A stretch of DNA of 64,000 nucleotides from Hymenobacter sp. HSC-4F20. Lineage in GTDB: Bacteria; Bacteroidota; Bacteroidia; Cytophagales; Hymenobacteraceae. A program made the translations under genes and the position numbers. The notes beneath the pieces are model-generated. The model had not been told where the DNA came from. It worked only from the letters and a program-made list of their open reading frames with translations, and did no database searches. Within the stretch, counting starts at the first letter, position 1. Every line of letters starts with the position of its first letter. Shown here in pieces: positions 49,775 through 64,000 of this stretch. The stretch covers positions 620,001-684,000 of the forward strand of contig NZ_JAHZTD010000001.1 of the NCBI RefSeq assembly GCF_019599275.1. Reading direction: 5' to 3'.

Positions 49775-50485
49775 CTATTCTTCCTCTTTAGTAGGAGGCA
49801 ATACTGGAACTTGGTTTTCGACCACTATTTTGGTGGCACCGGCTCGTTCAACCATTACTTGCTTTCCTACATCTGTCAGGTTACGGCTTTCGTAAATCTT
49901 CATGGCAGTAGAAATATCGATAGCCTGCCGGGTTTGCTCATCAAGATCGAAGGTGAGCGTGATAAAGTTGAGATGTACTCCTAGTGGCTCCAACACTTTA
50001 TTCGATTGAACCAGTAAGCTGTTTTCAATTTCCGCTTGGTCTAACTCCACAATGTCTTCCGTAAGGAACAACGCTTTACTCACGTCACGAATTCGCTTAT
50101 CAATCACCATGTTCTCAGCTCCTTCAAAAGCGGTTGGACTAAGCGCCTCGTTACTGTCTGCGTGAGCATTGGCTTTGCCCAAGTACTTAGCTTGCCGAAT
50201 AAAAGCTAGCGGATCAGTAATAGAGTAGTCGTAGTCGATATGTACTGATGCGCGTACCCTGTCCTTCAGATTAGTGATAAATTTACTGTCTCCCTGCATA
50301 GGGAAATTAGGAATTACCACCTTCATATAGCACGGATTCATAGTGCCTTTGGGTACGGCAGCGCCTGCGGGAATTTTACTCCAAGCCATACCGCAATCAT
50401 CTGAAACCAGCACTTGTTGGTTTGATTTAGCATAGTTGCAGCCGGCTAGAAGACTTGCCAGTAGGAGTAAAGAGAACGTACGCAT
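49775..50485 (-). CDS. SPFH/prohibitin-like lipoprotein
   Basis: 236 aa. The leader MRTFSLLLLASLLAGC is a clear lipoprotein signal. The mature protein has an SPFH-like core (DRVRASVHIDYDYSITDP, LAFIRQAKYLG, QAEIENSLLVQSNKVLEPLG, LNFITLTFDLDEQTRQAI) resembling prohibitin/Band-7 proteins. GC is distinctly lower than in the flanking genes. It lies 25 bp upstream of the AddA-like gene and may share its transcript. The role is unknown; membrane scaffolding is an inference. Confidence 0.7.
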   Translation of the reverse strand: MRTFSLLLLASLLAGCNYAKSNQQVLVSDDCGMAWSKIPAGAAVPKGTMNPCYMKVVIPNFPMQGDSKFITNLKDRVRASVHIDYDYSITDPLAFIRQAKYLGKANAHADSNEALSPTAFEGAENMVIDKRIRDVSKALFLTEDIVELDQAEIENSLLVQSNKVLEPLGVHLNFITLTFDLDEQTRQAIDISTAMKIYESRNLTDVGKQVMVERAGATKIVVENQVPVLPPTKEEE

Positions 50486-50556
50486 AATGGTGGCTGGTTA
50501 ATAGCGCGGGAAGTAGACGGTGACAGCTAAGGTAGAGACGAGCTATGCAACTTGCC

Positions 50557-50976
50557 CTACACCGGCCCCCACAGCCGCGCTACCACGTCCGCCTCAATCC
50601 GCACGGGGCGCTTGGTGGCGGGGTCCAGCAGCACCCATTGCGTTTCGGCCTCACAGAGCAGCTTATTATCGGCAGCCCGCTCAATCCGCACGAAGCGCTG
50701 GCATTGGGCCCCACGCACTTCGCCAATCCAGGTGGTGCAGCGCAGCTCCTGGCCCAGCAGGGCAGGGTGGCGGTACTGCACCCGGTGCTCCCGCACCACC
50801 CAGATATACTGTTCCCGCTCGCCCGGGGGGTAGGCCGTCAGCCAGTGTGCTCCGGCCGTATCCTGCACCCAGCGCACGTACTGCACGTTGTTGGCGTGGT
50901 CCAGCTCGTCGATATCCTCGGGCTGAACAGTGATAAGACGAGAGAATCGATAAGCAGGCCCAGAGCGTGTTTCCAT
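50557..50976 (-). CDS. Acyl-CoA thioesterase, hotdog fold
   Basis: 139-aa 4HBT/YbgC-type thioesterase. The motif DIDELDHANNVQYVRWVQDTAGAHW holds the family's conserved Asp/His region, followed by VVREHRVQYRHPALLGQEL and FVRIERAADNKLLCEAETQWVLLD. It hydrolyses acyl-CoA thioesters. Start ATG 50974-50976. It is monocistronic, upstream of an AT-rich gap. Confidence 0.87.
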   Translation of the reverse strand: METRSGPAYRFSRLITVQPEDIDELDHANNVQYVRWVQDTAGAHWLTAYPPGEREQYIWVVREHRVQYRHPALLGQELRCTTWIGEVRGAQCQRFVRIERAADNKLLCEAETQWVLLDPATKRPVRIEADVVARLWGPV

Positions 50977-51293
50977 AGGGGCAAAGCTACTAGGCCAGCA
51001 GGAAAACGTCAGAAACTGAGTACAAGGTTTTGTTTAATTCAGAGTGGGATAAATGCTATATATGGTTGCATAAACGCTTGTTATTCAGCTATTTATTTGT
51101 AAATATAGTCTTTTGTTAATTCTTGTGAATTCTGCTGGTCAGCTTGCATAAGGTATTTTACATCTAAAATATCCGTGTATATTTGAGCAGATTAAGAAAA
51201 CGCGGTTTCACCGTCCTGTTGAGTACTTCCGCAAGGGAGGGAAAGCAGAGTTGAGTGCGCTTTCCTAAAAAAACATCCATCATCACCAGTACC
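50977..51293 (+). other. AT-rich region and leader of the cold-shock gene
   Basis: The 317-bp gap between the thioesterase start and the cold-shock start is AT-rich in its centre. An exact -7 box TATATTTG lies at 51178-51185. The expected leader of about 100 nt may carry cold-responsive structure, as known for csp genes. Confidence 0.55.
51178..51185 (+). promoter_or_regulatory. -7 box TATATTTG of the cold-shock gene
   Basis: Exact TAnnTTTG match 108 bp before the ATG at 51294. The -33 element is weak. Confidence 0.5.
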
Positions 51294-51485
51294 ATGCAGA
51301 CAGGAACTGTAAAATTCTTCAACGAAACCAAAGGTTTCGGCTTTATCAAAGTTGACGAAACCGGCGAAGACGTATTCGTGCACGTAACCGAGTGCATCGA
51401 CGAAATCCGCGACAAAGACAAAGTGGAATTTGAAATTGCTCAAGGCCGCAAAGGCCCGAACGCCGTGAAAGTGAAGCTGGCCTAG
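51294..51485 (+). CDS. cspA: Cold-shock protein
   Basis: 63-aa single cold-shock domain. RNP1-type GFGFIKVDE and RNP2-type EDVFVHVTE are present, with the start MQTGTVKFFNETKG and the end PNAVKVKL. It binds single-stranded RNA or DNA and acts as an RNA chaperone. ATG at 51294 gives the standard family length. A classic terminator follows, and a DEAD-box RNA helicase lies 417 bp downstream. The gene symbol is used at family level only. Confidence 0.93.
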   Translation: MQTGTVKFFNETKGFGFIKVDETGEDVFVHVTECIDEIRDKDKVEFEIAQGRKGPNAVKVKLA

Positions 51486-51512
51486 TCCAGCGTCCTTTCC
51501 CGGATAGCTTAG

Positions 51513-51544
51513 AAAAGCAGGCTCCTGACGAGCCTGCTTTTTTT
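51513..51544 (+). terminator. Rho-independent terminator after cold-shock gene
   Basis: The 12-bp stem AAAAGCAGGCTC (51513-51524) pairs with 51530-51541 around a 5-nt loop, followed by a T run. Confidence 0.92.
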
Positions 51545-51714
51545 GTGGCCTACCACAGCGAAGTAGGGGGTAGGCAGCTTTCCTTATTCTTCTATCGTAT
51601 GCCTATCCCAGGGGCAGCACGTTTCGCCGGGGCGTTTTAAGTCGTCAGCAGGCGGCCTTTGCTCTTTTCTTTATATAAGACACGCGAGGTGATACAATAT
51701 TGATTATTTCTACG

Positions 51715-51722
51715 TATCTTTG
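51715..51722 (+). promoter_or_regulatory. -7 box TATCTTTG of the DEAD-box helicase
   Basis: Exact TAnnTTTG match about 180 bp upstream of the ATG at 51903, so the mRNA leader is long. No convincing -33 element. Confidence 0.55.
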
Positions 51723-51902
51723 CACCCGCATTTGAGAACGGCCACGTTCCGCGCAGCTTGTGAGCTGCCTTGTTAACCTGTTGGGCCGGCTTTGTCTTCC
51801 GTCCGTTGCTTCCGTCACTTGTCGTCGTTGTTGAGTGGGAGAGAAGAGCGTCGCTGAATCCGCTGTTTTCAGAGCTATTGTCTCCACTCCATCAACACAG
51901 AC
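51723..51902 (+). other. Long 5' leader of the DEAD-box helicase gene
   Basis: About 175 nt between the -7 box and the ATG with no open coding pattern. The length is unusual beside the near-leaderless genes elsewhere in the window. It may hold a regulatory RNA structure, as known for cold-induced helicases in other bacteria. Confidence 0.45.
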
Positions 51903-53843
51903 ATGGAAAAAGTAAAATTTGAAGAGCTGCCCCTCTCCGAGGAAATGCAGCGCGCTATTACGGAAGTTGGCTACGAAGAGGCCTCGCCTATTCAAACGGC
52001 TGCCATTCCGGTTCTTCTTGAAGGCAAAGACGTTATTGGCCAGGCCCAGACGGGTACCGGCAAAACCGCCGCCTTCTCCATTCCCGCTATCGAAAAAATC
52101 AACACCGACTCGCGTGAGGTGCAGGCCCTGGTGCTGTGCCCTACCCGCGAGCTGGCCGTGCAGGTTTCCGGCGAAATCCAGAAACTGGGCAAGTACAAGC
52201 GGGGCCTCTCGGTAGTGCCGATTTACGGCGGCTCCAGCTACGACCGCCAGTTCCGTGCTCTGGAGCGCGGCGTGCAGATTGTCATTGGTACCCCTGGCCG
52301 CGTAATGGACCACCTGGAGCGCGGTACCCTGAAGCTGGATAACTGCCGCATGATCATTCTTGATGAGGCCGACGAAATGCTCGACATGGGCTTCCGCGAC
52401 GATATCGAGACGGTGCTGACCAAGATGCCCGAGGAGCGTCAGACGGTCTTCTTCTCCGCTACCATGAGCAAGCCGATCATGGAGCTGACCAAGAAGTACC
52501 AGAAGGATCCGCAAATCGTGAAGGTCAACCATCAGGAGATGACCGTTACGAACATCGAGCAAAGCTACTACGAGGTACGCGGCCCCCAGAAAAAGGACGT
52601 GCTGACCCGTTTGCTCGATATGTACAACCTGAAGTCGACCATCGTATTCGCTAACACGAAGCGCATGGTAGACGAAATCGTGTCGGACCTGCAAGCCAAG
52701 GGCTATTTCGCCGATGGTCTGCACGGCGACATGGGCCAGCAGCAGCGCCAGAACACCCTGGACAAGTTCCGTAAGGGCACCCTGGAAATTCTGGTTGCTA
52801 CCGACGTAGCTGCTCGCGGTATCGACGTAGATAACGTGGAAGCCGTAGTAAACTACGACTTGCCCGCCGACGAAGAATACTACGTGCACCGTATTGGCCG
52901 TACAGGCCGCGCGGGCCGTCAGGGCAAAGCCTTCACCTTCGTGAGTGGCCGCGACATCTACAAGCTCCGCGACATCATGCGCTTCACCAAAGCCACGATT
53001 AAGCAGGAGCGCGTACCGTCGTTCGAGGATGTATCGGAAGTGAAAACGACCGTGATGCTCAACTCCATCAAGGAGGTTATTGAGAAGGGCAACCTCGACA
53101 AGTACATTGCCCGCGTACAGCGTCTGATTGATCAGGATCAGGAAGATGGTATTACGTCCCTCGACGTAGCCGCCGCCCTGCTGAAAATGACCATGAAAGA
53201 AGACAAGCGCGCGCAGGAAAGCCTCGACGCCAGCCGCACCCAAGGTGCTGCCCGCCCCGGCTTCACGCGCCTGTTCGTCACCATGGGCAAAAAGGACCGT
53301 CTGCACCCCCGCGACATCGTGGACCTGATTGCCGAAAACACCAGCCTCACGGCCGGAAAAGTAGGTGATATTGCCCTCTACGATAAGTTTAGCTTCGTGG
53401 AAGTGCCGAATGAGTTTGTTGAAGAGGTGATCAACCAGCTGGGTCGTAGCACCATTCAGGGCCGGCCGGTAGCCTTCAACATTGCTACCCCCCGCCAAGA
53501 AGGTGATGCCCAGCAAGAGGGTGGTAACCGCGGCGGTTTCGGTGGCGACCGTCCGCGTCGCGGCCCAGGTGGCTTCGGTGGCGGCGAGCGTCGCGAAGGC
53601 GGCTTCGGCGGTAACCGTGGCGGCGGTAGCTACGGCGGTAACCGCGGTGGTGGCAGCTACGGCGAGCGTCGGGAAGGCGGCTTCGGTGGCAACCGCGGCG
53701 GTAGCAGCTACGGCGGCAACCGGGGCGGTGGCTCCTTCGGCGGCGACCGTCGGGAGGGTGGCTCCTACGGTGGTAACCGCGGTGGCGGCAGCTACGGTGG
53801 TGGCTACAAAGGCAAGCGCGACAACGGCGGCTTCGACGAATAG
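51903..53843 (+). CDS. DEAD-box RNA helicase with glycine-rich RGG-like tail
   Basis: 646-aa SF2 RNA helicase of the DeaD/CsdA type. It has the Q motif ([19 protein letters not shown]), motif I AQTGTGKT (about 48-55), LDEADEML near residue 150, SATMS, and [17 protein letters not shown] DbpA-like RNA-binding domain follows at about 455-530 ([29 protein letters not shown]). The last ~110 residues repeat [11 protein letters not shown] and RREGGF units, a flexible RNA-binding tail. Like the adjacent cold-shock gene it probably supports RNA unwinding at low temperature and ribosome assembly. Confidence 0.95.
53520..53810 (+). repeat. Imperfect tandem repeat encoding the RGG-like tail
   Basis: Units of about 24-60 bp around GGTAACCGCGGTGG and AGCTACGGCGGT are repeated, encoding GGNRGG and SYGG blocks. 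It lies in frame at the 3' end of the helicase gene and may vary in copy number between strains. Confidence 0.75.
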
Positions 53844-53891
53844 AGAAGTAAACCGACGCTGATGTGGCGTTATCTACCTCAGTGTACAAGT

Positions 53892-53925
53892 AAAAAAAGG
53901 CCCCTCATCTGAGGGGCCTTTTTTT
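53892..53925 (+). terminator. Rho-independent terminator after the helicase
   Basis: AAAAAAAGGCCCCTC (53892-53906) pairs with GAGGGGCCTTTTTTT (53911-53925) around a 4-nt loop. Confidence 0.93.
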
Positions 53926-53992
53926 GGTTGCAGCCTACTGAATACAGAGGGCCTAATACACCCTTATTTCTCAGTCGGCAGCAGTAATGCGC

Positions 53993-54439
53993 TTATTTGG
54001 AAGCGTTGCGCAGGGCCTTGATTTCGTCGTGGCCTTGCTGAATGCCTTGAAACTGTTTTTCGAGAATGGACTTTAGCTGGCCGGGCAGACCTTCCGCCGC
54101 AAGTGCGGTCTGGTAGGCTTTCACGGCGTAGTCTTCGCCCCGCTCACATTCGTTGAGGATGCTCTCCCGGCTCTTGCTGGTAATAGCCGACTTCAAATTG
54201 ATAAAGACCCGGTGGAGAGTACCCGTTACAGAGCTTTCCTCTTCCACCTTGATATTGAGCTGGTGCAGCTGGTCTTCAATTTCCGTAAGATAACCGTCGC
54301 GCTGCACGGCGTATTTCTTGAATACTTCTTTCAGATCCTGATCTTCTACATCGGTGAGGGCTTCGGAGTAGCCTTTTTCGCCGTCTTTCAGGGTTTGAAC
54401 AATTTCTTTGAGCAGGGCTTGGGTTTCGTTGGCTTCCAT
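53993..54439 (-). CDS. DUF2383/PA2169-type four-helix protein
   Basis: 148 aa from ATG 54437-54439 (MEANETQALLKEIVQTLKDG). The four-helix pattern DGEKGYSEALTDVEDQDLKEVFKKYAVQR, LHRVFINLKSAITSK, ESILNECERGEDYAVKAYQTAL and LKSILEKQFQGIQQGHDEI is the ferritin-like DUF2383 family. Metal binding and a stress role are suggested for the family but not proven. It is convergent with the helicase. Confidence 0.87.
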   Translation of the reverse strand: MEANETQALLKEIVQTLKDGEKGYSEALTDVEDQDLKEVFKKYAVQRDGYLTEIEDQLHQLNIKVEEESSVTGTLHRVFINLKSAITSKSRESILNECERGEDYAVKAYQTALAAEGLPGQLKSILEKQFQGIQQGHDEIKALRNASK

Positions 54440-54680
54440 GAGGAGAGTAGATTTGGTGTTTAGGAAAGAAGAATTATGGTTTCCTTTACTGCCAAACCTT
54501 GCCCGAAGTTGCAACCGGCGCGAAACTAGTACCTGCGTATACCTCCTGAGCTGCCCGCACCAGAACAAAATGGAGCAGGGGCCACCAGCTTCAGGGCAGT
54601 GCTTTCGGCCGGTTCTCCCTTTCCTTGCTCTGTGGAAGGGTAGGAGCCAGCGGATAATTTTTGCGCTTTAGGAGGCCAGG

Positions 54681-55928
54681 TTACTTTACCAGCTCAGCCA
54701 TGGCCTTCCCGGCCAGATAGCCCGTAGTCCAGGCAGCCTGGAAGTTGAAGCCGCCGGTAATGCCGTCAATGTCCAGCACTTCCCCGGCGAAATGCAGTCC
54801 TGGAACCTTGCGGCTTTCCATCGTTTGCATGTTGACTTCGCCCAGCACGATGCCCCCGCAGGTCACAAATTCGTCCTTGTAAGTAGTTTTGCCCCGTACC
54901 GCTAGCGCCGTGCGGAGCAATCCTTCAATAAGGCGGTTCTGCAGTTTGGCGGGCAATTCGTTCCAGCGTGTTTCGGCCCCAATACCCGCCTGCTCCGCGA
55001 GGGTACGCCAGAGCCGTTGGGGTAGCCCGAACAGGGGGTTGCCGACTACCCCCTTTTTGCCGTGCACCTCTCGGAACTCCAGCAGGTATTGGCGCAGAGT
55101 GTCTTCGGTGTAATCGGGAATCCAATTGATAAGGGCCGTGCTTTGATAGTGCAACTCGTGCAGACGGCGGGCACCCCAGGCCGAAAGCTTGAGCACAGCT
55201 GGGCCACTCACGCCCCAGTGCGTTACCAGGACCGGTCCTTCATACTCCAGTTTTTCCCCGCTGACGCGTACGCGGGCCCGGGGTACGCTCACGCCCGGTA
55301 ACTCCCGCAGCGGTGATTCCGGAACGTTGAAAGTGAACAGGCTGGGTACCGGCTCCTGCACCGCATGGCCCAGTCGCCGCAGCCACTCGTATTGCTCGGC
55401 TTTCGGGGCCCCACCGGTAGCCACCAGCAAACGCGCTACCTGCAGCTGTTGGGCATGAGCCCCCGTTAGCGTCAGCTGAAAACCACCGGTAGCAACTGGC
55501 TCAATAAGCTCGGCGGTAGTTTGCTGCAGAATCTCTACTCCGGCAAGCCGGGCGGCATCCAGCAGGCAGCGGGCAATGGTTTCCGACGAATCCGTGGTGG
55601 GAAACATGCGGCCATCGGGTTCCGTTTTCAGGCGCACGCCGCGCTGCTCAAACCACCGCACGGTGTCTAATGCGCCAAACTGCTTAAAGGGCTCCTTCAG
55701 TTGCTTGGCTCCGCGGGGGTAGTGTTGCACCAGTTGAGCAGCCGTTTCGGCCGCGTGGGTAACGTTGCAGCGCCCGCCCCCCGAAATCCGGACTTTGCTC
55801 AGCAGCTTGGAGGTTTTCTCAATCAGCACAACCCGCAGGCTGGGGTTAGCTTCGGCGCAGGCAATGGCCCCAAAAAAGCCGGCTGCGCCACCTCCCAACA
55901 CCGCCACTGTATTCTTCGCTACATTCAC
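54681..55928 (-). CDS. HI0933/BaiN-like flavoprotein (TIGR00275 type)
   Basis: 415-aa FAD-binding oxidoreductase of unknown substrate. The Rossmann motif is VAVLGGGAAGFFGAIACAEA. Family motifs are KLLSKVRISGGGRCNVTHA near residue 40 and, at the end, VTCGGIVLGEVNMQTMESRK and FAGEVLDIDGITGGFNFQAAWTTG. It starts with GTG (55926-55928), and a TACCTTTG box ends 4 bp upstream, so it is probably leaderless. Paralogue of the protein at 31987-33246. Confidence 0.9.
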   Translation of the reverse strand: MNVAKNTVAVLGGGAAGFFGAIACAEANPSLRVVLIEKTSKLLSKVRISGGGRCNVTHAAETAAQLVQHYPRGAKQLKEPFKQFGALDTVRWFEQRGVRLKTEPDGRMFPTTDSSETIARCLLDAARLAGVEILQQTTAELIEPVATGGFQLTLTGAHAQQLQVARLLVATGGAPKAEQYEWLRRLGHAVQEPVPSLFTFNVPESPLRELPGVSVPRARVRVSGEKLEYEGPVLVTHWGVSGPAVLKLSAWGARRLHELHYQSTALINWIPDYTEDTLRQYLLEFREVHGKKGVVGNPLFGLPQRLWRTLAEQAGIGAETRWNELPAKLQNRLIEGLLRTALAVRGKTTYKDEFVTCGGIVLGEVNMQTMESRKVPGLHFAGEVLDIDGITGGFNFQAAWTTGYLAGKAMAELVK

Positions 55929-55932
55929 GGTG

Positions 55933-55940
55933 CAAAGGTA
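55933..55940 (-). promoter_or_regulatory. -7 box TACCTTTG for the second HI0933-like gene
   Basis: Exact TAnnTTTG match on the minus strand, 4 bp before the GTG at 55928. Confidence 0.55.
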
Positions 55941-56083
55941 CGGTATAGGTGACTGAGAGTGAAGAGTCAGGTCTGGATTGAGGCTGAGGCAGTCGGTTGC
56001 TAAGCGCGCAGCAACGCCGGGCGTTCTGTTCCGAATTTTTAGGCATTCGCAAAGAGCCAGGTGACTCCAGCAAGTCCAGCCTG

Positions 56084-56424
56084 ATGACCTACCCGCCCGA
56101 GGACGTGGTCAACGCCATGTTGCACCTCCATGAGCAGACCCCGCACATCCACGCCACGGTCGTGCCCATCGACTCGGCCGCAAGCTCAATTGCCGGGCGA
56201 TGCTAGACGACCGACAGAAGATGCGCGACATGCAAACCAGCTTTGCGGCCAAGGTAGCCCCGCTCGGGCTGCAGCGCGGGGTGGAGGGCAGCCCGGCTCA
56301 GCATCAGAAAGTGAAGCGCTTCTACGGGTTGGTCAAGGAGCTCAACCCGCAGCGCCAAGTAGCCCAGCAGAGCATCCGCCAGGCTGGACAGCAGCACAGC
56401 CGCAGCGGTGGAGTAGGCATGTAA
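56084..56424 (+). pseudogene. Fragment of a MobV/Pre-type plasmid relaxase, frameshifted
   Basis: From 56084 the frame reads MTYPPEDVVNAMLHLHEQTPHIHATVVPID, matching the relaxase metal-binding motif HxDExTPHxH, though Asp is His here. Near 56175-56185 a one-base shift breaks the frame. The second half continues in another frame as GRKLNCRAMLDDRQKMRDMQTSF, GLQRGVEGS and HQKVKRFYGL, a typical continuation of MobV proteins. The N-terminal DNA-binding part and the coiled-coil tail are missing. It is a decayed remnant of a mobilizable plasmid or integrated element; no integrase or origin was found nearby. Confidence 0.8.
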
Positions 56425-56456
56425 AGGCTATGCCCTACTTAAATCACCCTTTGAAA

Positions 56457-56801
56457 TTACAAACGAATGTCCACGCGGATGCTCTTAGAGTTGATTTCCT
56501 GGGCGTAAACAAGTGTGTCCTGGCGAGCTTGCTTTACTTCAATGGCCAGGTAACACAGCAGCGGGAATCTGGTCGTAAAACGTCCCTGCGCATCCGTGGT
56601 TAGCGTATCGTGCCGGTACCCGTTGTAACTGTCATAGTCTCCGCCCCGGTAATAGGCCGTTTCCAGATATAGCACGGCCCCCTTTACCGGCTGTTGGGTT
56701 CGCCGGTCCGTCACAGTGCCAACAAGGCAGGCATTTTCTACGTCTTTGGGCCGGCATCTGACCAGCGCAAGCAGCAGTAACAATGTCCATCTTGGGCGCA
56801 T
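56457..56801 (-). CDS. Small carboxypeptidase-regulatory-like lipoprotein
   Basis: 114 aa from ATG 56799-56801. The leader MRPRWTLLLLLALVRC is lipoprotein-like. The mature domain (CLVGTVTDRRTQQPVKGAVLYLETA, DTLTTDAQGRFTTRFPLLCYLAIEV) matches the CarboxypepD_reg beta-sandwich common in Bacteroidota outer-envelope proteins. The TACCTTTG box lies 22 bp upstream of the start. Confidence 0.75.
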   Translation of the reverse strand: MRPRWTLLLLLALVRCRPKDVENACLVGTVTDRRTQQPVKGAVLYLETAYYRGGDYDSYNGYRHDTLTTDAQGRFTTRFPLLCYLAIEVKQARQDTLVYAQEINSKSIRVDIRL

Positions 56802-56823
56802 AAGGGCAGAGGCGTGGCCGTTG

Positions 56824-56831
56824 CAAAGGTA
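56824..56831 (-). promoter_or_regulatory. -7 box TACCTTTG for the small lipoprotein
   Basis: Exact TAnnTTTG match on the minus strand, 22 bp before the ATG at 56801. Confidence 0.55.
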
Positions 56832-56857
56832 GGCAGCAGCATTTAACTGGCCTATTG

Positions 56858-57178
56858 CTATTTGGACCGTTTGAATACCCCCCAAAACCCTAGTCTTTTA
56901 GGGAGCTGCACGATTGGATCCCTCACAATTGGGCCCTTCCACTCGTTAGGCGGAATCATCTTCAGGTAGTCATCGCCCACGTACAGCGTTACTTCGAGAC
57001 TTGGATCCTGCTGATGCAACCGCAAAGCAAACTGCTCGGCCTCCGCCAAGGAATCAAAGTAGTGATAGGGTATTACTGCCTCTACATCTGCTGGATGCGA
57101 GTACACCGTTTTGGCGTCAGTATTCATTACTTGCCCCGTGGCGCGTTGGCAAATCAGGACTTTGTATGTGGGAGTCAT
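56858..57178 (-). CDS. Hypothetical protein
   Basis: 106 aa from ATG 57176-57178 (MTPTYKVLICQRATGQVM). It is mixed alpha/beta, with YHYFDSLAEAEQFALRLHQQDPSLEVTLYVGDD and a basic C-terminus (LPKRLGFWGVFKRSK). No family was recognised. It is upstream of the small lipoprotein gene on the same strand. Confidence 0.6.
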   Translation of the reverse strand: MTPTYKVLICQRATGQVMNTDAKTVYSHPADVEAVIPYHYFDSLAEAEQFALRLHQQDPSLEVTLYVGDDYLKMIPPNEWKGPIVRDPIVQLPKRLGFWGVFKRSK

Positions 57179-57437
57179 GGCGATAAGGGAATGACTGCTG
57201 GAACGCTTCTTTCCTTTTACGGCCAGCTGCTGCGCAGCACTAAGCGCCTCGTCAAAGTACCACGCTGGCACCAAGCCGCGCAGGGAGGAGAAACCACCAT
57301 TATTCCGAGCCGGGGTGTATAACGTATGTTATATTAAGGGACGAAAATCAGACAAGGAAGAAGCTTTCTAGTAGCTCACACTATGGGAAAAGCCTTTTTC
57401 GGGCACCCTTGATAGAAAGCGTAGTAGCTTATCGGTA

Positions 57438-58283
57438 TCAGCAATACTCCAGCGCGGCCACTACATCCTCATGGCGGAACTGGTAGCCGGTTAGCTCCCG
57501 AATCAGCGAAGAATCAATTTGCTTGCCCCCTGTAGTTTCTTCCAGAAAGGTAGGCGGCTGCAGCCCCAGGCGCGTGGCCGCGGCCGTGTAAAACGCGCGG
57601 CGGGTAGGATGGGTAGCCGCGCTGGCATTGAACGTGTGGCCCCACAGATTCCGCTCAATAATGCAGGTGAGCAGGCTGATGCAGTCTTGCAGGTGAATCA
57701 GGTTGACAGGAGCTTCCCCGTGTGGTACACCGGCGCGGCCGGCCAGAAAACGGCCTGGGGACCGGCCCGGGCCAATCAGTCCGGCTAGGCGCACTACCGT
57801 ATGAAACGGCGGCTGAAACAAGGCCTCGGCCTGAAGTAATGGTGCCTCTGCCGTAAAGGCCGCCAGCGCGTCCGACTCCTGCATGAGGCGAGGCTCGTCG
57901 GCATAGACGCCGGTAGAGCTAACCAGCAGCACGTGCCGGACGCCGGACAGCACGGTCGCCTCGGCTACCGGTCGTAACAGCGCGGGGTAGGCCTGCGGGG
58001 AGCCCGCCGCACGGGTAGGCGGCACGTTCAGCACCAGCACATCAACCCCATGCAGCAAGGCTTGCAGAGTATCTGCGTCGGTAGGAGTCAGGCTAGGGGC
58101 CAGGCGCAGCAGAAACGGCCGGATACCGGCGTCGCGCAGAGTGAGCAACTGGCCGGGGGTAGTGGTGGAGCCGTGCACCGGGTAGCCAGCCCCGACCAGA
58201 GCCTGTGCCAGGGGTAACCCCAGCCAGCCGCAGCCCAGAACGGCCACCGTAGGGCGAAGGACGGAAGAAGTAGCGTCGGTCAT
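57438..58283 (-). CDS. Extended SDR / NAD(P)-dependent epimerase-like (YeeZ-type)
   Basis: 281 aa. The Rossmann motif is VAVLGCGWLGLPLAQALVGAGY near residue 13. The chain continues VDVLVLNVPPTRAAG, VLLVSSTGVYADEP (with the catalytic-type Ser/Tyr position), VRLAGLIGPGRSPGRFLAG and NLIHLQDCISLL. The overall pattern fits YeeZ-like reductases of unknown substrate. ATG 58281-58283. Confidence 0.85.
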   Translation of the reverse strand: MTDATSSVLRPTVAVLGCGWLGLPLAQALVGAGYPVHGSTTTPGQLLTLRDAGIRPFLLRLAPSLTPTDADTLQALLHGVDVLVLNVPPTRAAGSPQAYPALLRPVAEATVLSGVRHVLLVSSTGVYADEPRLMQESDALAAFTAEAPLLQAEALFQPPFHTVVRLAGLIGPGRSPGRFLAGRAGVPHGEAPVNLIHLQDCISLLTCIIERNLWGHTFNASAATHPTRRAFYTAAATRLGLQPPTFLEETTGGKQIDSSLIRELTGYQFRHEDVVAALEYC

Positions 58284-58384
58284 GTGGGGGTAAAGGTGGC
58301 AAAAAATCTGAGCTGGGCAAGAAGGCCGGGAGGAATTGCCAAACTGTTACCTTGCGCCTCAACTAGTAGGCAAGCATACTACCT

Positions 58385-58777
58385 ATGGCCGCTCCGTACC
58401 GCCTCTACTCTGACTACGCCGACGACTTTGAGGCCCGGGTGCGGCTGCTGCGGCCCGAGGAGGGTGGGCGGCAGCTGCCTCCTTATAACGGTATCCGCTG
58501 GGATTTTTGCTATGCGCATGACCAACCCATGCTCCGCTACATGTGGCTGTACCCCGATTTCTTCGACCCTGGAACCGGCAACTCCCTACGGGATGGGCTG
58601 CCTTTGCCCGTTGATGCATGGCTACACGCACGGATTCCTATCTTTCTTGCCGCCGCCCGGCCCTTTCACCAGCCGAAACTTTGGCCCGGCACCAGCTTTT
58701 ACTACTGCGAGGGTAGCCGGGTAGTCGCCGAGGGTACCGTTACCCGCCTGACCAGTTTGAGTACATTCCGGCCGTAA
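58385..58777 (+). CDS. EF-Tu domain-3-like small protein
   Basis: 130 aa (MAAPYRLYSDYADDFEARVR). The segments ARVRLLRPEEGGRQLPPYNGIRWDFCYAH and GTSFYYCEGSRVVAEGTVTRLT resemble the C-terminal beta-barrel domain of elongation factor Tu, which is also found as a stand-alone family in some bacteria. No GTPase domain is present. The function is unknown. It is divergent from the epimerase-like gene. Confidence 0.62.
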   Translation: MAAPYRLYSDYADDFEARVRLLRPEEGGRQLPPYNGIRWDFCYAHDQPMLRYMWLYPDFFDPGTGNSLRDGLPLPVDAWLHARIPIFLAAARPFHQPKLWPGTSFYYCEGSRVVAEGTVTRLTSLSTFRP

Positions 58778-58822
58778 GTAAAATCACTGAACAGAATCTT
58801 CCCACTTCAATTTTCTCACCCT

Positions 58823-59704
58823 ATGTCCTCAACTCACCCCTACGCCCAACCTATGCTGCGCGACAACGCCCTGCAGGGCAAAACCATTGTGGTAACGGGC
58901 GGCGGCACGGGCCTCGGCCGCGCCATGACCACCTATTTCCTGCAGCTTGGCGCCAACGTAGTCATCAGCTCCCGCAAGCTGGAAGTGCTCGAAAAAACCG
59001 CCGAGGAGCTGCGCCAGCAGACGGGCAACCAGGGCGTGCTGGCCGTGCAATGCGACGTCCGCAAGTACGATGAAGTAGAAGCGCTGCTCCAGAAAACCAT
59101 CGACACGTTTGGCGGGGTAGATGTGCTGCTCAACAATGCCGCCGGTAACTTTATCAGCCCCACGGAGCGCCTCAGTCACAAGGCTTTTGATGTGATTGTG
59201 GACATCGTGCTGAAGGGTTCCTACAATTGCACCCTGGCCTTTGGCAAGCGCTGGATTGCCGAAAAGAAGCCCGGCACTATTCTTAACATCGTGACTACCT
59301 ATGCCTCAGTGGGCTCGGCCTTCGTGGTGCCTTCGGCTACGGCCAAAGCGGGGGTGCTGGCGCTTACCCGTTCCCTGGCCGTAGAATGGGCCAAGTATGG
59401 TATCCGCTCCAACGCCATTGCGCCCGGCCCCTTCCCAACGGAAGGCGCTTGGAGCCGCCTGTTTCCCGAGCCCCTGGCTTCCAAGCTCGACCCGGCGGCT
59501 TCCGTGCCACTCAAGCGGGTAGGCAATCATCAGGAACTGGCCAACCTGGCCGCCTACATGGTTTCTGACTTCTCGGCCTACATGAACGGCGAGGTAGTAA
59601 CCCTCGATGGGGGCGAGTGGCTTAACGGAGCCGGGGAGTTCAACAAGCTCGAACTTCTAACCCCGGATATGTGGGACCACATTGAAAAAACCATGCGCCG
59701 CTAA
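58823..59704 (+). CDS. 2,4-dienoyl-CoA reductase-like SDR
   Basis: 293-aa classical SDR. The cofactor motif is VVTGGGTGLGRAM, with VLLNNAAGNF following. The active-site region is VGSAFVVPSATAKAGVLALT, where the usual Tyr of YxxxK is Ser, exactly as in mitochondrial 2,4-dienoyl-CoA reductase (PSASAKAGV). AIAPGPFPTEGAWSRLFPEP and NGEVVTLDGGEWL also match. It reduces 2,4-dienoyl-CoA in degradation of unsaturated fatty acids. A strong terminator follows. Confidence 0.9.
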   Translation: MSSTHPYAQPMLRDNALQGKTIVVTGGGTGLGRAMTTYFLQLGANVVISSRKLEVLEKTAEELRQQTGNQGVLAVQCDVRKYDEVEALLQKTIDTFGGVDVLLNNAAGNFISPTERLSHKAFDVIVDIVLKGSYNCTLAFGKRWIAEKKPGTILNIVTTYASVGSAFVVPSATAKAGVLALTRSLAVEWAKYGIRSNAIAPGPFPTEGAWSRLFPEPLASKLDPAASVPLKRVGNHQELANLAAYMVSDFSAYMNGEVVTLDGGEWLNGAGEFNKLELLTPDMWDHIEKTMRR

Positions 59705-59760
59705 AAACTTGTTTTACAACGAATAAGCACGGACCAGTCGGACTTGCCAGATATTGGCCG

Positions 59761-59800
59761 GCAATAAAAAAGCCTCGTTCTCACGAGGCTTTTTTATTGC
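59761..59800 (+). terminator. Rho-independent terminator, perfect 18-bp arms
   Basis: GCAATAAAAAAGCCTCGT (59761-59778) pairs exactly with 59783-59800 around TCTC, giving A and T tracts on both sides. Confidence 0.92.
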
Positions 59801-59884
59801 GGTGCGTGCTTCTGCTGTCTGGCGAGCAGGCGCAGTAAAGTGTCGATAACAACCAGCTAACACGGCTCCGAAGTAACTCCGTAA

Positions 59885-60733
59885 TTAGAGTTTGTATCCC
59901 TTAAACTCCTTCGTGAACTCTTGGGCGGGAATGGGTTGGTTGGCGATAATGTCGCTGAACTCAAACTTTTCGAACAGCCCTTTGTCGTCGTTTACCTGAA
60001 TGGAGAGGGGTAGGGTCAGCTTTTGATCCACGGCAATAATGACGCGGCGGCCGTACGCATTGGGCACTTGCAGGGTGCGGCCCGCAGGCACGGTAGCGCC
60101 GGGCGTGAGGCCGTTGCGCTCCAGAATCCGATACTCGCCACACCCAAACCGGTTGGCAATGGAAGTAACGGTTTCGGCCTTAGTGGTTTTGTAGGGTACG
60201 TAGCGGAACTGGGGGTAGTCGGCGCGTAAAATGTAAGCCGGGCGGCCCTGCACGGTGGTGTCGCCAGCGTAACGGAAGCTTTTCTCGAAGCTACGGTCCA
60301 GGCGCTGGCTGGAGCCGCGCAGTAGCTCGGCAATGGTGCCGTAGCCCGCATCGAGCACGCTGTGGTGCTGGGTTTTGCGCATTAAGCTGCCCAGCGGATC
60401 AAGGCTGACGGTGACGTAGGGGAAGCTGTTGGGGTACACCCAGGCGTCGCCGTCGTTTTGGCCCGTCACGTACAGCACCTCAATGCCCTTCTGATTGCGC
60501 AGGTACACTTTATAGGGCTTAAACGCCATTTTCATGCTGGTACGCGCCTGCTGGTAGCTACCCTCAATCCGCTCCTGAGCGCGCACGTTGCAGCGCAGCG
60601 TTTTCAGATTTTCAATGGCTGCCGTAAGGCGAGCAATGAGCTGTTCGGTAGTCGGTTTGGGGTCGGCTGGAGCGGCGGCTACACTGCCTGCCGCAAATAG
60701 GAGAAAAGAGAGTAATCGGAAATACCGAATCAT
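59885..60733 (-). CDS. DUF1571 exported protein with inserted LysM-like segment
   Basis: 282-aa exported protein (signal LLSFLLFAAGSVAAAPA). The DUF1571 core is split. The first half (LTAAIENLKTLRCNVRAQERIEG, MKMAFKPYKVYLRNQKGIEVLYV, GSLMRKTQHHSVLDAGYG) and last half (IIAVDQKLTLPLSIQVNDDKGLFEKFEF) are separated by a LysM-like block (KAETVTSIANRFGCGEYRILERNGL, GATVPAGRTLQVPNAYG). DUF1571 is related to LolA-like lipoprotein carriers, and LysM binds peptidoglycan, so an envelope role is likely. Confidence 0.8.
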   Translation of the reverse strand: MIRYFRLLSFLLFAAGSVAAAPADPKPTTEQLIARLTAAIENLKTLRCNVRAQERIEGSYQQARTSMKMAFKPYKVYLRNQKGIEVLYVTGQNDGDAWVYPNSFPYVTVSLDPLGSLMRKTQHHSVLDAGYGTIAELLRGSSQRLDRSFEKSFRYAGDTTVQGRPAYILRADYPQFRYVPYKTTKAETVTSIANRFGCGEYRILERNGLTPGATVPAGRTLQVPNAYGRRVIIAVDQKLTLPLSIQVNDDKGLFEKFEFSDIIANQPIPAQEFTKEFKGYKL

Positions 60734-60897
60734 GCAGAAAGCGAAGAAGGTAACTACTTAAAAATAGGACGAGTGGGCTAGCAGAAATCGAGCCGGAAGG
60801 GCAGAAGCTGAAGCGTTGCACGGGCCGCGACACCGAGCGCCGGGTGTTTCTGGTGACGCCAGCGTTTAATGGCCCTGTCTCCGGGCACACCCTCTTT

Positions 60898-61197
60898 TTA
60901 GTTAAGACTAATGCGGGGAAAGCGGCTGGCCGTGCTATCGAATACAAACAGCTCGTCGATTTCTATTTCGCGCAAAAACCGGTACAGCGGAAATTGCTCA
61001 ACCACGGCCCGCACCGTAGCGGCATTCAAGCCATTGATGGTTACCCAGCCGCGGGTGCGGTCGGCGCTGATGGCGTAGGACTCCACAATGTTTTCTTCGA
61101 TGAGCTGATTGATAAAGGCACGATGGCGCGGAATGAGGGCAATGAAATCCTCATCAAAAAAATCGGGCAGACGGAGCGTGACTACGAATTTGGCCAT
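60898..61197 (-). CDS. YciI/muconolactone-isomerase-like small protein
   Basis: 99 aa from ATG 61195-61197 (MAKFVVTLRLPDFFDEDFIALIPRHR). The ferredoxin-like dimer pattern continues FINQLIEENIVESYAISAD and WVTINGLNAATVRAVVEQFPLYRFLREIEIDELFVFD. It matches the family of YciI-like and muconolactone-isomerase-like proteins. No catalytic role can be assigned. It is divergent from the glycosyltransferase gene. Confidence 0.75.
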   Translation of the reverse strand: MAKFVVTLRLPDFFDEDFIALIPRHRAFINQLIEENIVESYAISADRTRGWVTINGLNAATVRAVVEQFPLYRFLREIEIDELFVFDSTASRFPRISLN

Positions 61198-61297
61198 GAA
61201 GCAAGCAGCGGACAAAACCGTAACGCCTCCCGCGCAACGAAAGTTGGCCTTGAGACAGGTGGTGTAACTTTTTTTGAGCTGAGCCGGAATAGAGAGC

Positions 61298-62059
61298 ATG
61301 CATTTTTCTGTAATCACTCCGACCCACAACCGCCAGGACTTTTTGCCCGAGGCCGTAGCCAGCGTACGCGCAACCGTATCGGCACCCCTGGATTTCTCCT
61401 TTGAACACCTGATTTGCGAAAACGCCAGCACCGACAACACCGCGGCCTGGCTGCGGGAAGCTGCCTCGCAGGAAGGCATCCCACTGCGAGTACGTGCCCA
61501 GGCTGAAAAGCTGCTGCCCGGTCCGGCCCGCAACCTGCTGATTCGGAAAGATGCGCCCACCGACGGTTGGATTGTGCCGCTCGACGACGATGACGTGCTG
61601 CTCCAACGCACGCTGTTTCACTACGCCACCCAGATTCAGCAGCACCCCGGCCGGCCGTGGCTGGTGGCCGATTTCCTGCGCGTGGACCAGGACCGGCGCT
61701 ACCTCCCCCATGAGGACTATTACGCCTGGAAGTTCGACTCACCAACTGACATGCTGCGCGCCATATTTCGGGCTGAGCACTTTATCCAGGGCAATGTGTG
61801 CTACAGCCGCGCCCTCTTCGATGAGGTAGGCGGCTACGATGAGCAGATTGAAATGGCCGAAGACCTGGACCTGTACGTGCGGTTTCTGCTGGCCGGCCAC
61901 GAGCCCGTTATTTGCCCACACATCAGCCATTTGCACCGCTTCCACACCAGCAACGTCAGCATCGGCGTCGATGCCGACAAGCATGGCCAAGACTTACAGG
62001 TGATTTACGATAAATACGCCGCGCAGCTGAAGGAGCGCGGTATTGAGCGGCCGGGGTAA
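61298..62059 (+). CDS. Family 2 glycosyltransferase
   Basis: 253-aa cytoplasmic GT-A fold enzyme. The nucleotide-sugar segment is FSVITPTHNRQDFLPEAVASV and LICENASTDNTAAW, with the metal-binding DDD in WIVPLDDDDVLL and the acceptor-side GGYDEQIEMAEDLDLYVRFLLAGHEP. No membrane helix, so it probably acts on soluble or lipid-linked acceptors. It stands alone here, not in an obvious polysaccharide cluster. ATG 61298. Confidence 0.9.
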   Translation: MHFSVITPTHNRQDFLPEAVASVRATVSAPLDFSFEHLICENASTDNTAAWLREAASQEGIPLRVRAQAEKLLPGPARNLLIRKDAPTDGWIVPLDDDDVLLQRTLFHYATQIQQHPGRPWLVADFLRVDQDRRYLPHEDYYAWKFDSPTDMLRAIFRAEHFIQGNVCYSRALFDEVGGYDEQIEMAEDLDLYVRFLLAGHEPVICPHISHLHRFHTSNVSIGVDADKHGQDLQVIYDKYAAQLKERGIERPG

Positions 62060-62077
62060 GCTTCTGTCATAAACAGC

Positions 62078-62155
62078 GTCGTGGCGAGTGGAAGCAAGGC
62101 ATCTGGTTGACTTCCAGAGGAAACGTAGATTTCTCGCTTGCCTACTCGCCATGAC
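62078..62155. repeat. REP-like palindromic element
   Basis: The left arm 62078-62104 (GTCGTGGCGAGTGGAAGCAA...) and right arm 62127-62155 are imperfect reverse complements; the right arm reads GTCATGGCGAGTAGGCAAGC on its complement. It lies between convergent glycosyltransferase and amidohydrolase genes and shares GTCAT-type ends with the elements near 0.4 and 7.6 kb. Confidence 0.65.
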
Positions 62156-62173
62156 ACCGTTTTACGGGTTTCG

Positions 62174-63448
62174 CTACTCTTTTACCACTACCCCGCCTTT
62201 CACTACCAACCGCACCTGCCGGAGCGCTTTGACGTCTTTGGTTGGGTCGCCGGGTACGGCGATGAGGTCGGCGAGCAGGCCGGGCTGGATGCGGCCCCGG
62301 TCGGGGAGCTGGAAAATGCGGGCATTGGTGCTGGTGAAGCCACGCAAAGCTTGAAGGGTAGTAAAGCCGTACTCCTGCACCAGTAACTCAGCCTCGCGCA
62401 GGTTGTCGCCGTGGGCGAATACGCCGACGTCGCCACCGTAGGCCAAATCCACGCCGCTTTGCAGGGCCGCTTTCACCGACTGCTTTTTCTGCTGGATGCG
62501 TTCCGGCTCGGGGTCTTGGCCTTTGCGCCAGCCGCGGTACTGGGAGGTAGCGTCGCCGGCGGCGACGGTGGGGCAGAGGGCTACCCCGCGCTGCTTCATG
62601 AGCTTGAATACTTCCGGAGTGCCGGCGTCGCCGTGCTCAATGGTTTGGACGCCGGCCAGGGTAGCGCGGCGCATGCCTTCGGGCGTGCTGGCGTGGGCTA
62701 CTACCGGGCGCCCGGCGCTGCGGGCCGTCTGCACAATCAGGTTTAGCTCGTCCTGGGTGAAGGTGGGGCGGCTGGGCTCATTGGCTCCCCAGCGGTAATC
62801 GGCATATACCTTAATTACATCAGCGCCCTTACCAATCTGTTCCCGCACGGCCCGGATGATGCCATCCACACCGTCGGCTTCCTGCGCGCCCTGTGGCACG
62901 TCGAAGCCGGCAGCTAGCTTGGGGCCATAACTACCCGTAGCAACCAAGGCCCGGGTGGCTACCACCATGCGCGGACCCGGAATCAGCCCCCGGTCAATGG
63001 CTTGCTTCAGGCCCACATCGGCGTAGCCGGCGCCTTCACTGCCCAAGTCGCGGACGGTGGTAAAGCCGGCTTCCAGGGTGCGGCGGGCGTGAGCCGTGGC
63101 GCGGGCCACGCGCAGGGCTTCCGACTCCTGTAGCACCTGGTCGTTCCAGCTGGTTTCGTTGTAAGGGTGGAGCAGTAGGTGGGAGTGGCCTTCAATGAGG
63201 CCGGGCAACAACGTCAGGCCTGGCAACTCCAGGGTACGCGCGCCAGCTGGAGCTGTAAGCTGGGCGGCCGGACCTACAGCTTTAATTTTTTCACCTTCTA
63301 CTAGCACTGCCCAGCCGGGGTGTAGGGTTTCGCCATCAAAGACGGCAGCCGGGTGGAGCAGCAGGGCGGGGGGAGGCGTTGGCGCGGAGGGTTGGGCTAG
63401 GGCGGTCAGGCCCGGGAGAAACAGGGTGACGAAGAGGGGTAGGCGCAT
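62174..63448 (-). CDS. Exported amidohydrolase, second type
   Basis: 424-aa metal-dependent hydrolase from ATG 63446-63448 with signal MRLPLFVTLFLPGLTALAQ. Features are LLPGLIEGHSHLLLHPY (the HxH motif as HSH), VIKVYADYRWG with the Lys position, PVVAHASTPEGM, TIEHGDAGT, the late Asp in AYGGDVGVFAHGDN, and the tail GRIQPGLLADLIAVPGDP. Resembles imidazolonepropionase-like exported amidohydrolases; the substrate is unknown. An alternative ATG at 63470-63472 shares one base with the upstream gene stop (TGATG), so a longer form with translational coupling is possible. Confidence 0.85.
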   Translation of the reverse strand: MRLPLFVTLFLPGLTALAQPSAPTPPPALLLHPAAVFDGETLHPGWAVLVEGEKIKAVGPAAQLTAPAGARTLELPGLTLLPGLIEGHSHLLLHPYNETSWNDQVLQESEALRVARATAHARRTLEAGFTTVRDLGSEGAGYADVGLKQAIDRGLIPGPRMVVATRALVATGSYGPKLAAGFDVPQGAQEADGVDGIIRAVREQIGKGADVIKVYADYRWGANEPSRPTFTQDELNLIVQTARSAGRPVVAHASTPEGMRRATLAGVQTIEHGDAGTPEVFKLMKQRGVALCPTVAAGDATSQYRGWRKGQDPEPERIQQKKQSVKAALQSGVDLAYGGDVGVFAHGDNLREAELLVQEYGFTTLQALRGFTSTNARIFQLPDRGRIQPGLLADLIAVPGDPTKDVKALRQVRLVVKGGVVVKE

Positions 63449-63471
63449 AGAAAGACGAAAATACCGAACCA

Positions 63472-64000
63472 TCACCTGTTAGATAAAGGCGGCAACTGCT
63501 TTTTCAAGTAAAAGGCATCAATAATAATCATGAAGGTGTCAACGCCAGGTCTTATGTCACTATTGTCAATTCCTATGCGGTAGTAGCCCTTTACTTTCGT
63601 TATGCTATCAGTGAGGGTAGCAGTTGGTGTGCACTCAATGGTTAATACATCCTTGCTGTCACTTAGCACTTCTCCATTAATATTGTTGTCGAATGAGTAG
63701 TCAAAGTAGATATCCTTAGCTGGTTGGTTCTTTCGAATAAAGCTAGCTATATCCTTGTTTCTTTTAAAAATCTTAATGACAAACGAAGAATTATATGTTA
63801 TTGTGTCATTTGATATGTTAGTTAAATAACTATCTTCAGATGCTGCTGGTTGTTTGTTCTCTATATGAGCATCATTCTGGCTGCAAGAGCAAAATACATT
63901 TGCGAGTAATATTATTGTTGTACTATTAATTATAGTGCTAATATGTCTGTGAAAGGCATTTGTTTTTCTATGTAGATTATTGTTGTGGATGCGTTTTATG
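63472..64000 (-). CDS. AT-rich putative lipoprotein (runs off right edge)
   Basis: An open frame with no stop from the window edge to TGA at 63472-63474, about 176 codons. GC is far below the neighbours. A hydrophobic segment (ISTIINSTTIILLANVFCSC) ends in a lipobox-like region, followed by SQNDAHIENKQPAASEDSYL and a soluble beta-rich part (FVIKIFKRNKDIASFIRK, TKVKGYYRIGIDNSDIRPGV, TFMIIIDAFYLKKQLPPLS). The visible part has no ATG, so the true start is outside the window or non-ATG. No family recognised. It overlaps the alternative start of the amidohydrolase. Confidence 0.65.
   Translation of the reverse strand, partial: IKRIHNNNLHRKTNAFHRHISTIINSTTIILLANVFCSCSQNDAHIENKQPAASEDSYLTNISNDTITYNSSFVIKIFKRNKDIASFIRKNQPAKDIYFDYSFDNNINGEVLSDSKDVLTIECTPTATLTDSITKVKGYYRIGIDNSDIRPGVDTFMIIIDAFYLKKQLPPLSNR

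Follow-up and report, generated by a model that had tools for sequence, protein, structure and literature searches.

A decayed mobV gene in a Hymenobacter chromosome may mark the left border of a plasmid-derived, cassette-like gene unit

Integron gene cassettes place single unrelated genes in a common slot, and plasmid dimer resolution sites of the cer/psi type join a dif-like core to a longer conserved accessory flank. MobV relaxases carry a conserved HxDE-x2-PHxH motif. The closest known counterparts of the locus described here appear to be the pdif/dif modules of Acinetobacter, which are described on Rep_3 plasmids (PMC13141974, PMC12907356). Our Hymenobacter locus and its relatives resemble them in their Rep_3 plasmids, in dif-like sites on both plasmids and chromosomes, and in small gene modules that differ between plasmids; unlike them, they have one ~165-bp dif-like element with conserved flanks (hereafter X) on one side only and are bounded on the other by a mobV 3' end rather than a second 28-bp site. 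Like integron cassettes, the Hymenobacter units hold single unrelated genes in a common slot; unlike integrons, they showed no integrase among the seven ORFs of one intact plasmid, L089, that we scanned with Pfam. X shares with cer/psi sites the dif-like core and longer conserved flank and differs from them in also lying on chromosome-sized contigs, in several copies in some genomes and beside differing cargo. Titles and abstract openings of literature on Hymenobacter Xer or relaxase genes, on Bacteroidota dif/XerCD cassettes and on dif-like sites with MobV held nothing on an arrangement of mobV tail, cargo and X, and those of the pdif/dif-module literature concern mainly Acinetobacter, or Acinetobacter among general plasmid work.

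The locus lies in a 64,000-nucleotide stretch (the window) of Hymenobacter sp. HSC-4F20, positions 620001-684000 of contig C9 in the source genome (G000). Here an island of ~1.49 kb (55944-57436; left edge uncertain by ~25 bp, right edge by ~5 bp) is absent from relatives: homology to the nearest relative found, G055 (locus L042), breaks off at 55943 and picks up again at 57437. The resident neighbours are an HI0933-like flavoprotein gene on the left (54681-55928, minus strand; its product has 92% identity with that of H. sediminis and 91% with that of H. latericoloratus) and an NAD-epimerase-like gene on the right (57438-58283, minus strand; Pfam NAD_binding_10 just under cut-off). Of 51 loci from relatives, 50 have both genes in the same orientation with 7-231 bp between them, and in the last one the second gene was not found; nine of the 51 are counted twice (distinct contigs with both genes, 41 of 42), and six come from the other genera Solirubrum, Pontibacter and Adhaeribacter. 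A preliminary description of this DNA had proposed seeking the same scar in relatives, where the insert proved absent, or direct repeats around 55940-56460; a search of 55900-57470 for an insertion footprint gave five direct-repeat families, none of which pairs the two island edges. For known RNAs, 55800-57600 gave two Rfam matches (E 0.15 and 0.87), both under gathering scores. Further left, the part of a DEAD-box-like helicase gene (named by eye) that codes for the C-terminus is repetitive and glycine-rich (53520-53800).

The island contains a mobV remnant, two small minus-strand genes and, at its right end, X. The remnant matches Mob_Pre (PF01076) in both reading frames, on either side of a frameshift: 55997-56203 passed the 25.5-bit cut-off (E 1.2e-6, 28.9 bits), as did the first piece in a whole-genome scan (E 1.1e-5, 26.8 bits), and 56200-56421 fell under it (E 0.0019, 18.5 bits). 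The match is not due to chance, because DNA identity is 82-87% for the seven best matches from other Hymenobacter genomes (those with more than 250 query bases, omitting a second copy in one genome). The preliminary description was right that a MobV fragment split by a frameshift lies in the chromosome. It had begun the fragment at 56084; homology is clear from ~56004 and plausible from ~55961. We place the remnant at 55961-56425 on the plus strand, its left edge uncertain in that 55961 is the edge of the sequence slice aligned. Of the two ends held to be missing, the 5' part is indeed gone, and the natural 3' end with its stop is kept: the window reads ...QQHSRSGGVGM to a stop at 56424, where the intact 240-residue MobV ends ...QQHSRSGGIGM or similarly.

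Comparison with complete copies, as had been suggested, located a one-base difference between the two frames, a 1-nt deletion among others of 22, 69 and 18 nt whose placement varies with the alignment. The reported change of Asp to His was confirmed: the remnant has HLHEQTPHIH against HLDEQTPHIH in five intact plasmid copies, and so departs from HxDE-x2-PHxH. Where all five intact mobV genes agree, the remnant departs from them at 19 of 134 first, 12 of 142 second and 15 of 86 third codon positions; leaving out each intact gene in turn (one of them sliced one codon early, in frame) gave 13, 9 and 38 differences combined. Judged by this pattern, constraint on the remnant as a protein gene seems to have ended. 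It shares family, motif region and small-plasmid context with MobV relaxases, which include a solved relative, the plasmid recombination enzyme 4lvi; unlike working members it is 5'-truncated, frameshifted and changed from D to H, and with its N-terminal part gone and its frame broken, relaxase function cannot be expected from its sequence. That the gene is intact and its frameshift a sequencing error is very improbable: the one-base difference between frames would suit such an error, but the separate 22-, 69- and 18-nt deletions, the lost 5' part, the altered motif residue and the changes at all codon positions would not.

Neither of the two other genes looks decayed in this way. Cargo gene 1 (56457-56801, minus strand) is an open frame for a putative lipoprotein of 114 aa with weak similarity to CarboxypepD_reg (20.7 bits, under the 32.3 cut-off). 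It shares 85% DNA identity with G075:C2:103-451, differing at 10, 5 and 34 sites by codon position (114 each); no mobV tail is visible in the 102 bp available beside that homologue, so homology is confined to the gene. Of 99 genomes searched, four have the lipoprotein-like gene, counting the source genome itself. Cargo gene 2 (56858-57178, minus strand) is an open frame for a 106-aa protein assigned to no family, with DNA homologues in G054 (partial), G004 and G068 and codon-position differences of 1/0/8, 9/9/29 and 13/14/29, respectively. Neither cargo protein had a tblastn match in PLSDB. Differences from homologues thus fall mainly at third positions, unlike those of the mobV part, and by sequence the two cargo genes look intact where the mobV part is dead. 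The preliminary view of the locus as a plasmid fossil between flavoprotein and lipoprotein genes holds in one respect, in that the chromosome carries a decayed relaxase gene from a small plasmid of mobilizable type, and fails in its flanks: the lipoprotein gene is cargo inside the insert.

X (57247-57412, plus strand, right limit approximate) resembles DNA on many Hymenobacter contigs and consists of a dif-like core with conserved flanks. The 28-bp core at 57312-57339 (plus strand) reads GGGGTGTATAA-CGTATG-TTATATTAAGG, and a consensus was taken over 20 sites. A genus dif candidate, TTATAATTTATATTATGTTAAGT, is single-copy in 98 of 101 genomes, present twice in two and absent from one (up to 3 mismatches), a reversed control pattern giving 0 matches, and its right arm, TTATGTTAAGT, is nearly that of X. 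With two arms, a 6-bp centre and this relation to the host dif, the X core can be classed by sequence as a dif-type site, and XerCD would presumably be the enzyme acting there. Among the matches listed, an X sequence model found at least 85 of 101 genomes, with at least 24 matches in one, on small and chromosome-sized contigs alike; in PLSDB, two blastn queries returned 10 and 4 records, all Hymenobacter. In window positions 50001-64000 one X only was detected, at the island's right end, and not the two inverted pdif sites of an Acinetobacter-type dif module. Contigs L087, L091 and G004:C151 do have pairs of X in inverted orientation, 2-3 kb apart, and dif-module-like parts are possible there. 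We do not favour integration of the island through crossover between the X core and an arbitrary chromosomal position, as ~75 bp of plasmid-type sequence separates the core from the resident gene on its right.

Within the source genome, the candidate chromosomal dif is at G000:C9:991578-991600, outside the window. Two more X-like cores lie at G000:C9:779678-779697 (L106), on the contig of the window unit and ~102 kb away from it, and at G000:C43:30960-30979 (L112). A further element, E, measures 69 bp and has three operator-like palindromes (GAGTTTNNNAAACTC type); it is placed either ~22 bp upstream of X or, in inverted orientation, ~76 bp downstream, and in some units it immediately precedes a truncated mobV tail. 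Copies are at L175:156-224, L178:4722-4791, L178:9255-9186, L211:4290-4222 and L089:2830-2761.

Our reading, to which we give a probability of about 0.55, is that the fragment forms the left edge of a cassette-like unit that comes from small Rep_3/MobV plasmids of Hymenobacter and whose contents can be exchanged. Such a unit consists of a mobV 3' tail, one or two cargo genes and then X; in the plasmids, an intact mobV is followed by a variable gene slot between its stop codon and X, and units with a 5'-eroded mobV also reside in larger plasmids and chromosomes. Five intact relatives of the remnant encode a 240-aa MobV on contigs of 5.1-11.1 kb. These small plasmids have mobV in common at 86-92% DNA identity, followed by unrelated genes and then X, and the similarity runs out near the end of the stop codon, from 13 bp short of it to 38 bp past it. 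L089, the only one scanned with Pfam, has a Rep_3 initiator (Rep3_N, E 3.8e-32), a MazF-like toxin, a MazE just under cut-off and a MobV that is over its cut-off and matches 4lvi; it provides a Rep_3 plasmid context, the window copy itself being chromosomal.

Units of this order recur across the genus. At E 0.001, 52 of 101 genomes had a match to a model of the mobV 3' tail, the weakest matches probably by chance, and we examined 48 tails: all 44 listed matches of E 1.8e-9 or better, plus four that were weaker, not all of them independent (one plasmid dimer and other contigs with two tails are included). X lay downstream on the same strand, at 200-1750 bp, in 30 of the 48, as opposed to one case downstream on the opposite strand, one upstream on the same strand and none upstream on the opposite strand; 500 random placements of the 49 X matches gave a mean of 4.6 and a maximum of 12. 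Because 11 of the 20 sites in the first X model came from tail units themselves, we repeated the association with a model of nine tail-less sites, and the four counts became 29, 1, 1 and 0 of 48, against a mean of 4.5 and a maximum of 13 for random placement. At 18 of the 48 tails no X stood in the scored interval, the sequence being too short to tell in three only. A rough control, in that its two queries differ in sequence, concerned the bias towards 3' fragments: a query from the 5' half of mobV with upstream DNA was strong only for intact plasmids and one partial copy, its other matches reaching E 4e-7 or worse apart from short ones to the upstream inverted repeat, and the window query, mainly the 3' part, found many 3' fragments.

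Several of these features suit a plainer history, in which small plasmids integrated into the chromosome or larger plasmids, the unneeded rep/mob part was deleted at random and useful cargo was kept, leaving tail and X as functionless leftovers; we regard this as a serious possibility, though one that we would not back over its negation. The left ends of the tails vary between units, as expected of erosion rather than of a precise site, and so do tail lengths; many tails have a broken reading frame; and the window cargo, unlike mobV, differs mainly at third positions. Most X elements, as far as can be detected, lie outside a tail-cargo-X unit: 7 of 45 X matches examined (the best and some chromosomal ones, duplicates included, usually with ~1.5 kb each side) had a same-strand tail nearby. 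Taken alone, the window fits mere scarring and exchange equally well. Random deletion by itself does not account, however, for three units whose cargos differ but whose truncated tails directly follow the same element E, or for unrelated cargo beside the same tail at orthologous sites.

Cargo is diverse throughout. The 30 tail-X segments contain 33 ORFs of at least 85 aa (no more than two kept per segment), covering 44-95% of them, and all-against-all blastn and blastp found no cargo common to units other than one plasmid dimer, besides which there were two short X-proximal DNA matches. Pfam was run on 15 of the 33 ORFs, the window's two included: barstar, SMI1/KNR4, ankyrin, MORN, PQQ propeller, thioredoxin-like and DUF7878 matches were over cut-off and DUF6438 was under it, and at E 0.01 five of the 13 non-window ORFs had no match.

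At two orthologous sites the cargo differs between genomes. In G062 and G041 a unit sits between the same two genes, with left flank and tail 87.6% identical, and the cargos are a 382-aa thioredoxin-like protein and a 140-aa DUF7878 protein; homology is back inside X, and the relative G015 is without the unit. Left of the X core, 43 of 59 aligned bases agree (85 columns), and on the right 65 of 82 (94 columns); swapping predicts a left/right asymmetry at X, and the modest one here counts against it, being compatible with exchange at the core without being decisive. In G100 and G045, flanks are 83-90% identical, the tails have a common 24-nt deletion and the cargos are dissimilar; immediately beside X the two sequences gave no alignment. 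It is this unrelated cargo at two orthologous sites that leads us to favour exchange over a plain scar.

Different units might instead have inserted independently at preferred sites, with no swapping in place, an account that we consider improbable. Tails in G062 and G041 share, by eye, the same left edge, which may reflect target preference, and G015 has no unit at this site, its two genes being ~45-50 bp apart. Yet only two of 30 Sir2 loci searched with ~1.5 kb flanks, those of G062 and G041, have X or a tail, and the 24-nt deletion, found in two of the 48 tails (G100 and G045), points to one ancestral tail, although it sits between short repeats and could recur.

Exchange of cassette contents could proceed in three steps. 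XerCD recombination at X would fuse an incoming plasmid with a resident unit; homologous recombination between the two mobV tails would then loop the plasmid out together with the old cargo; and the new cargo would stay behind in the resident unit. More tentatively, such exchange may be genus-wide, with Rep_3/MobV plasmids shuttling single genes of Hymenobacter by XerCD and mobV-tail recombination, and the 3' end of the relaxase gene may, just as tentatively, continue to serve as a DNA homology arm after the death of its protein. The route by which a unit first entered the chromosome is likewise conjectural. If this exchange reading is right, broken relaxase genes are more than debris and mark places of single-gene trading between chromosomes and plasmids, the traded genes being barstar-like, SMI1/KNR4-like, thioredoxin-like, lipoprotein and others of no assigned family. 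Xer-dependent gene modules would then extend to Bacteroidota with a different second border, and a mobV tail with a dif-like site could be used as a marker for exchanged genes next to unannotated DNA.

The small plasmids have further features of their own. In L086, L087, L088, L089 and L090, a long conserved inverted repeat (ACAATTTTGGGCAGCC...GGCTGCCTAAAATTGT in G097) stands upstream of mobV and could be a transfer origin. L090 (G003:C2) and G003:C5 seem to be head-to-tail copies of one plasmid, two by sequence and three by X spacing, which may be either multimers or assembly effects. The source genome also has a longer MobV gene in an open frame of 546 aa, on its 50-kb contig (L001, G000:C44:8144-8758).
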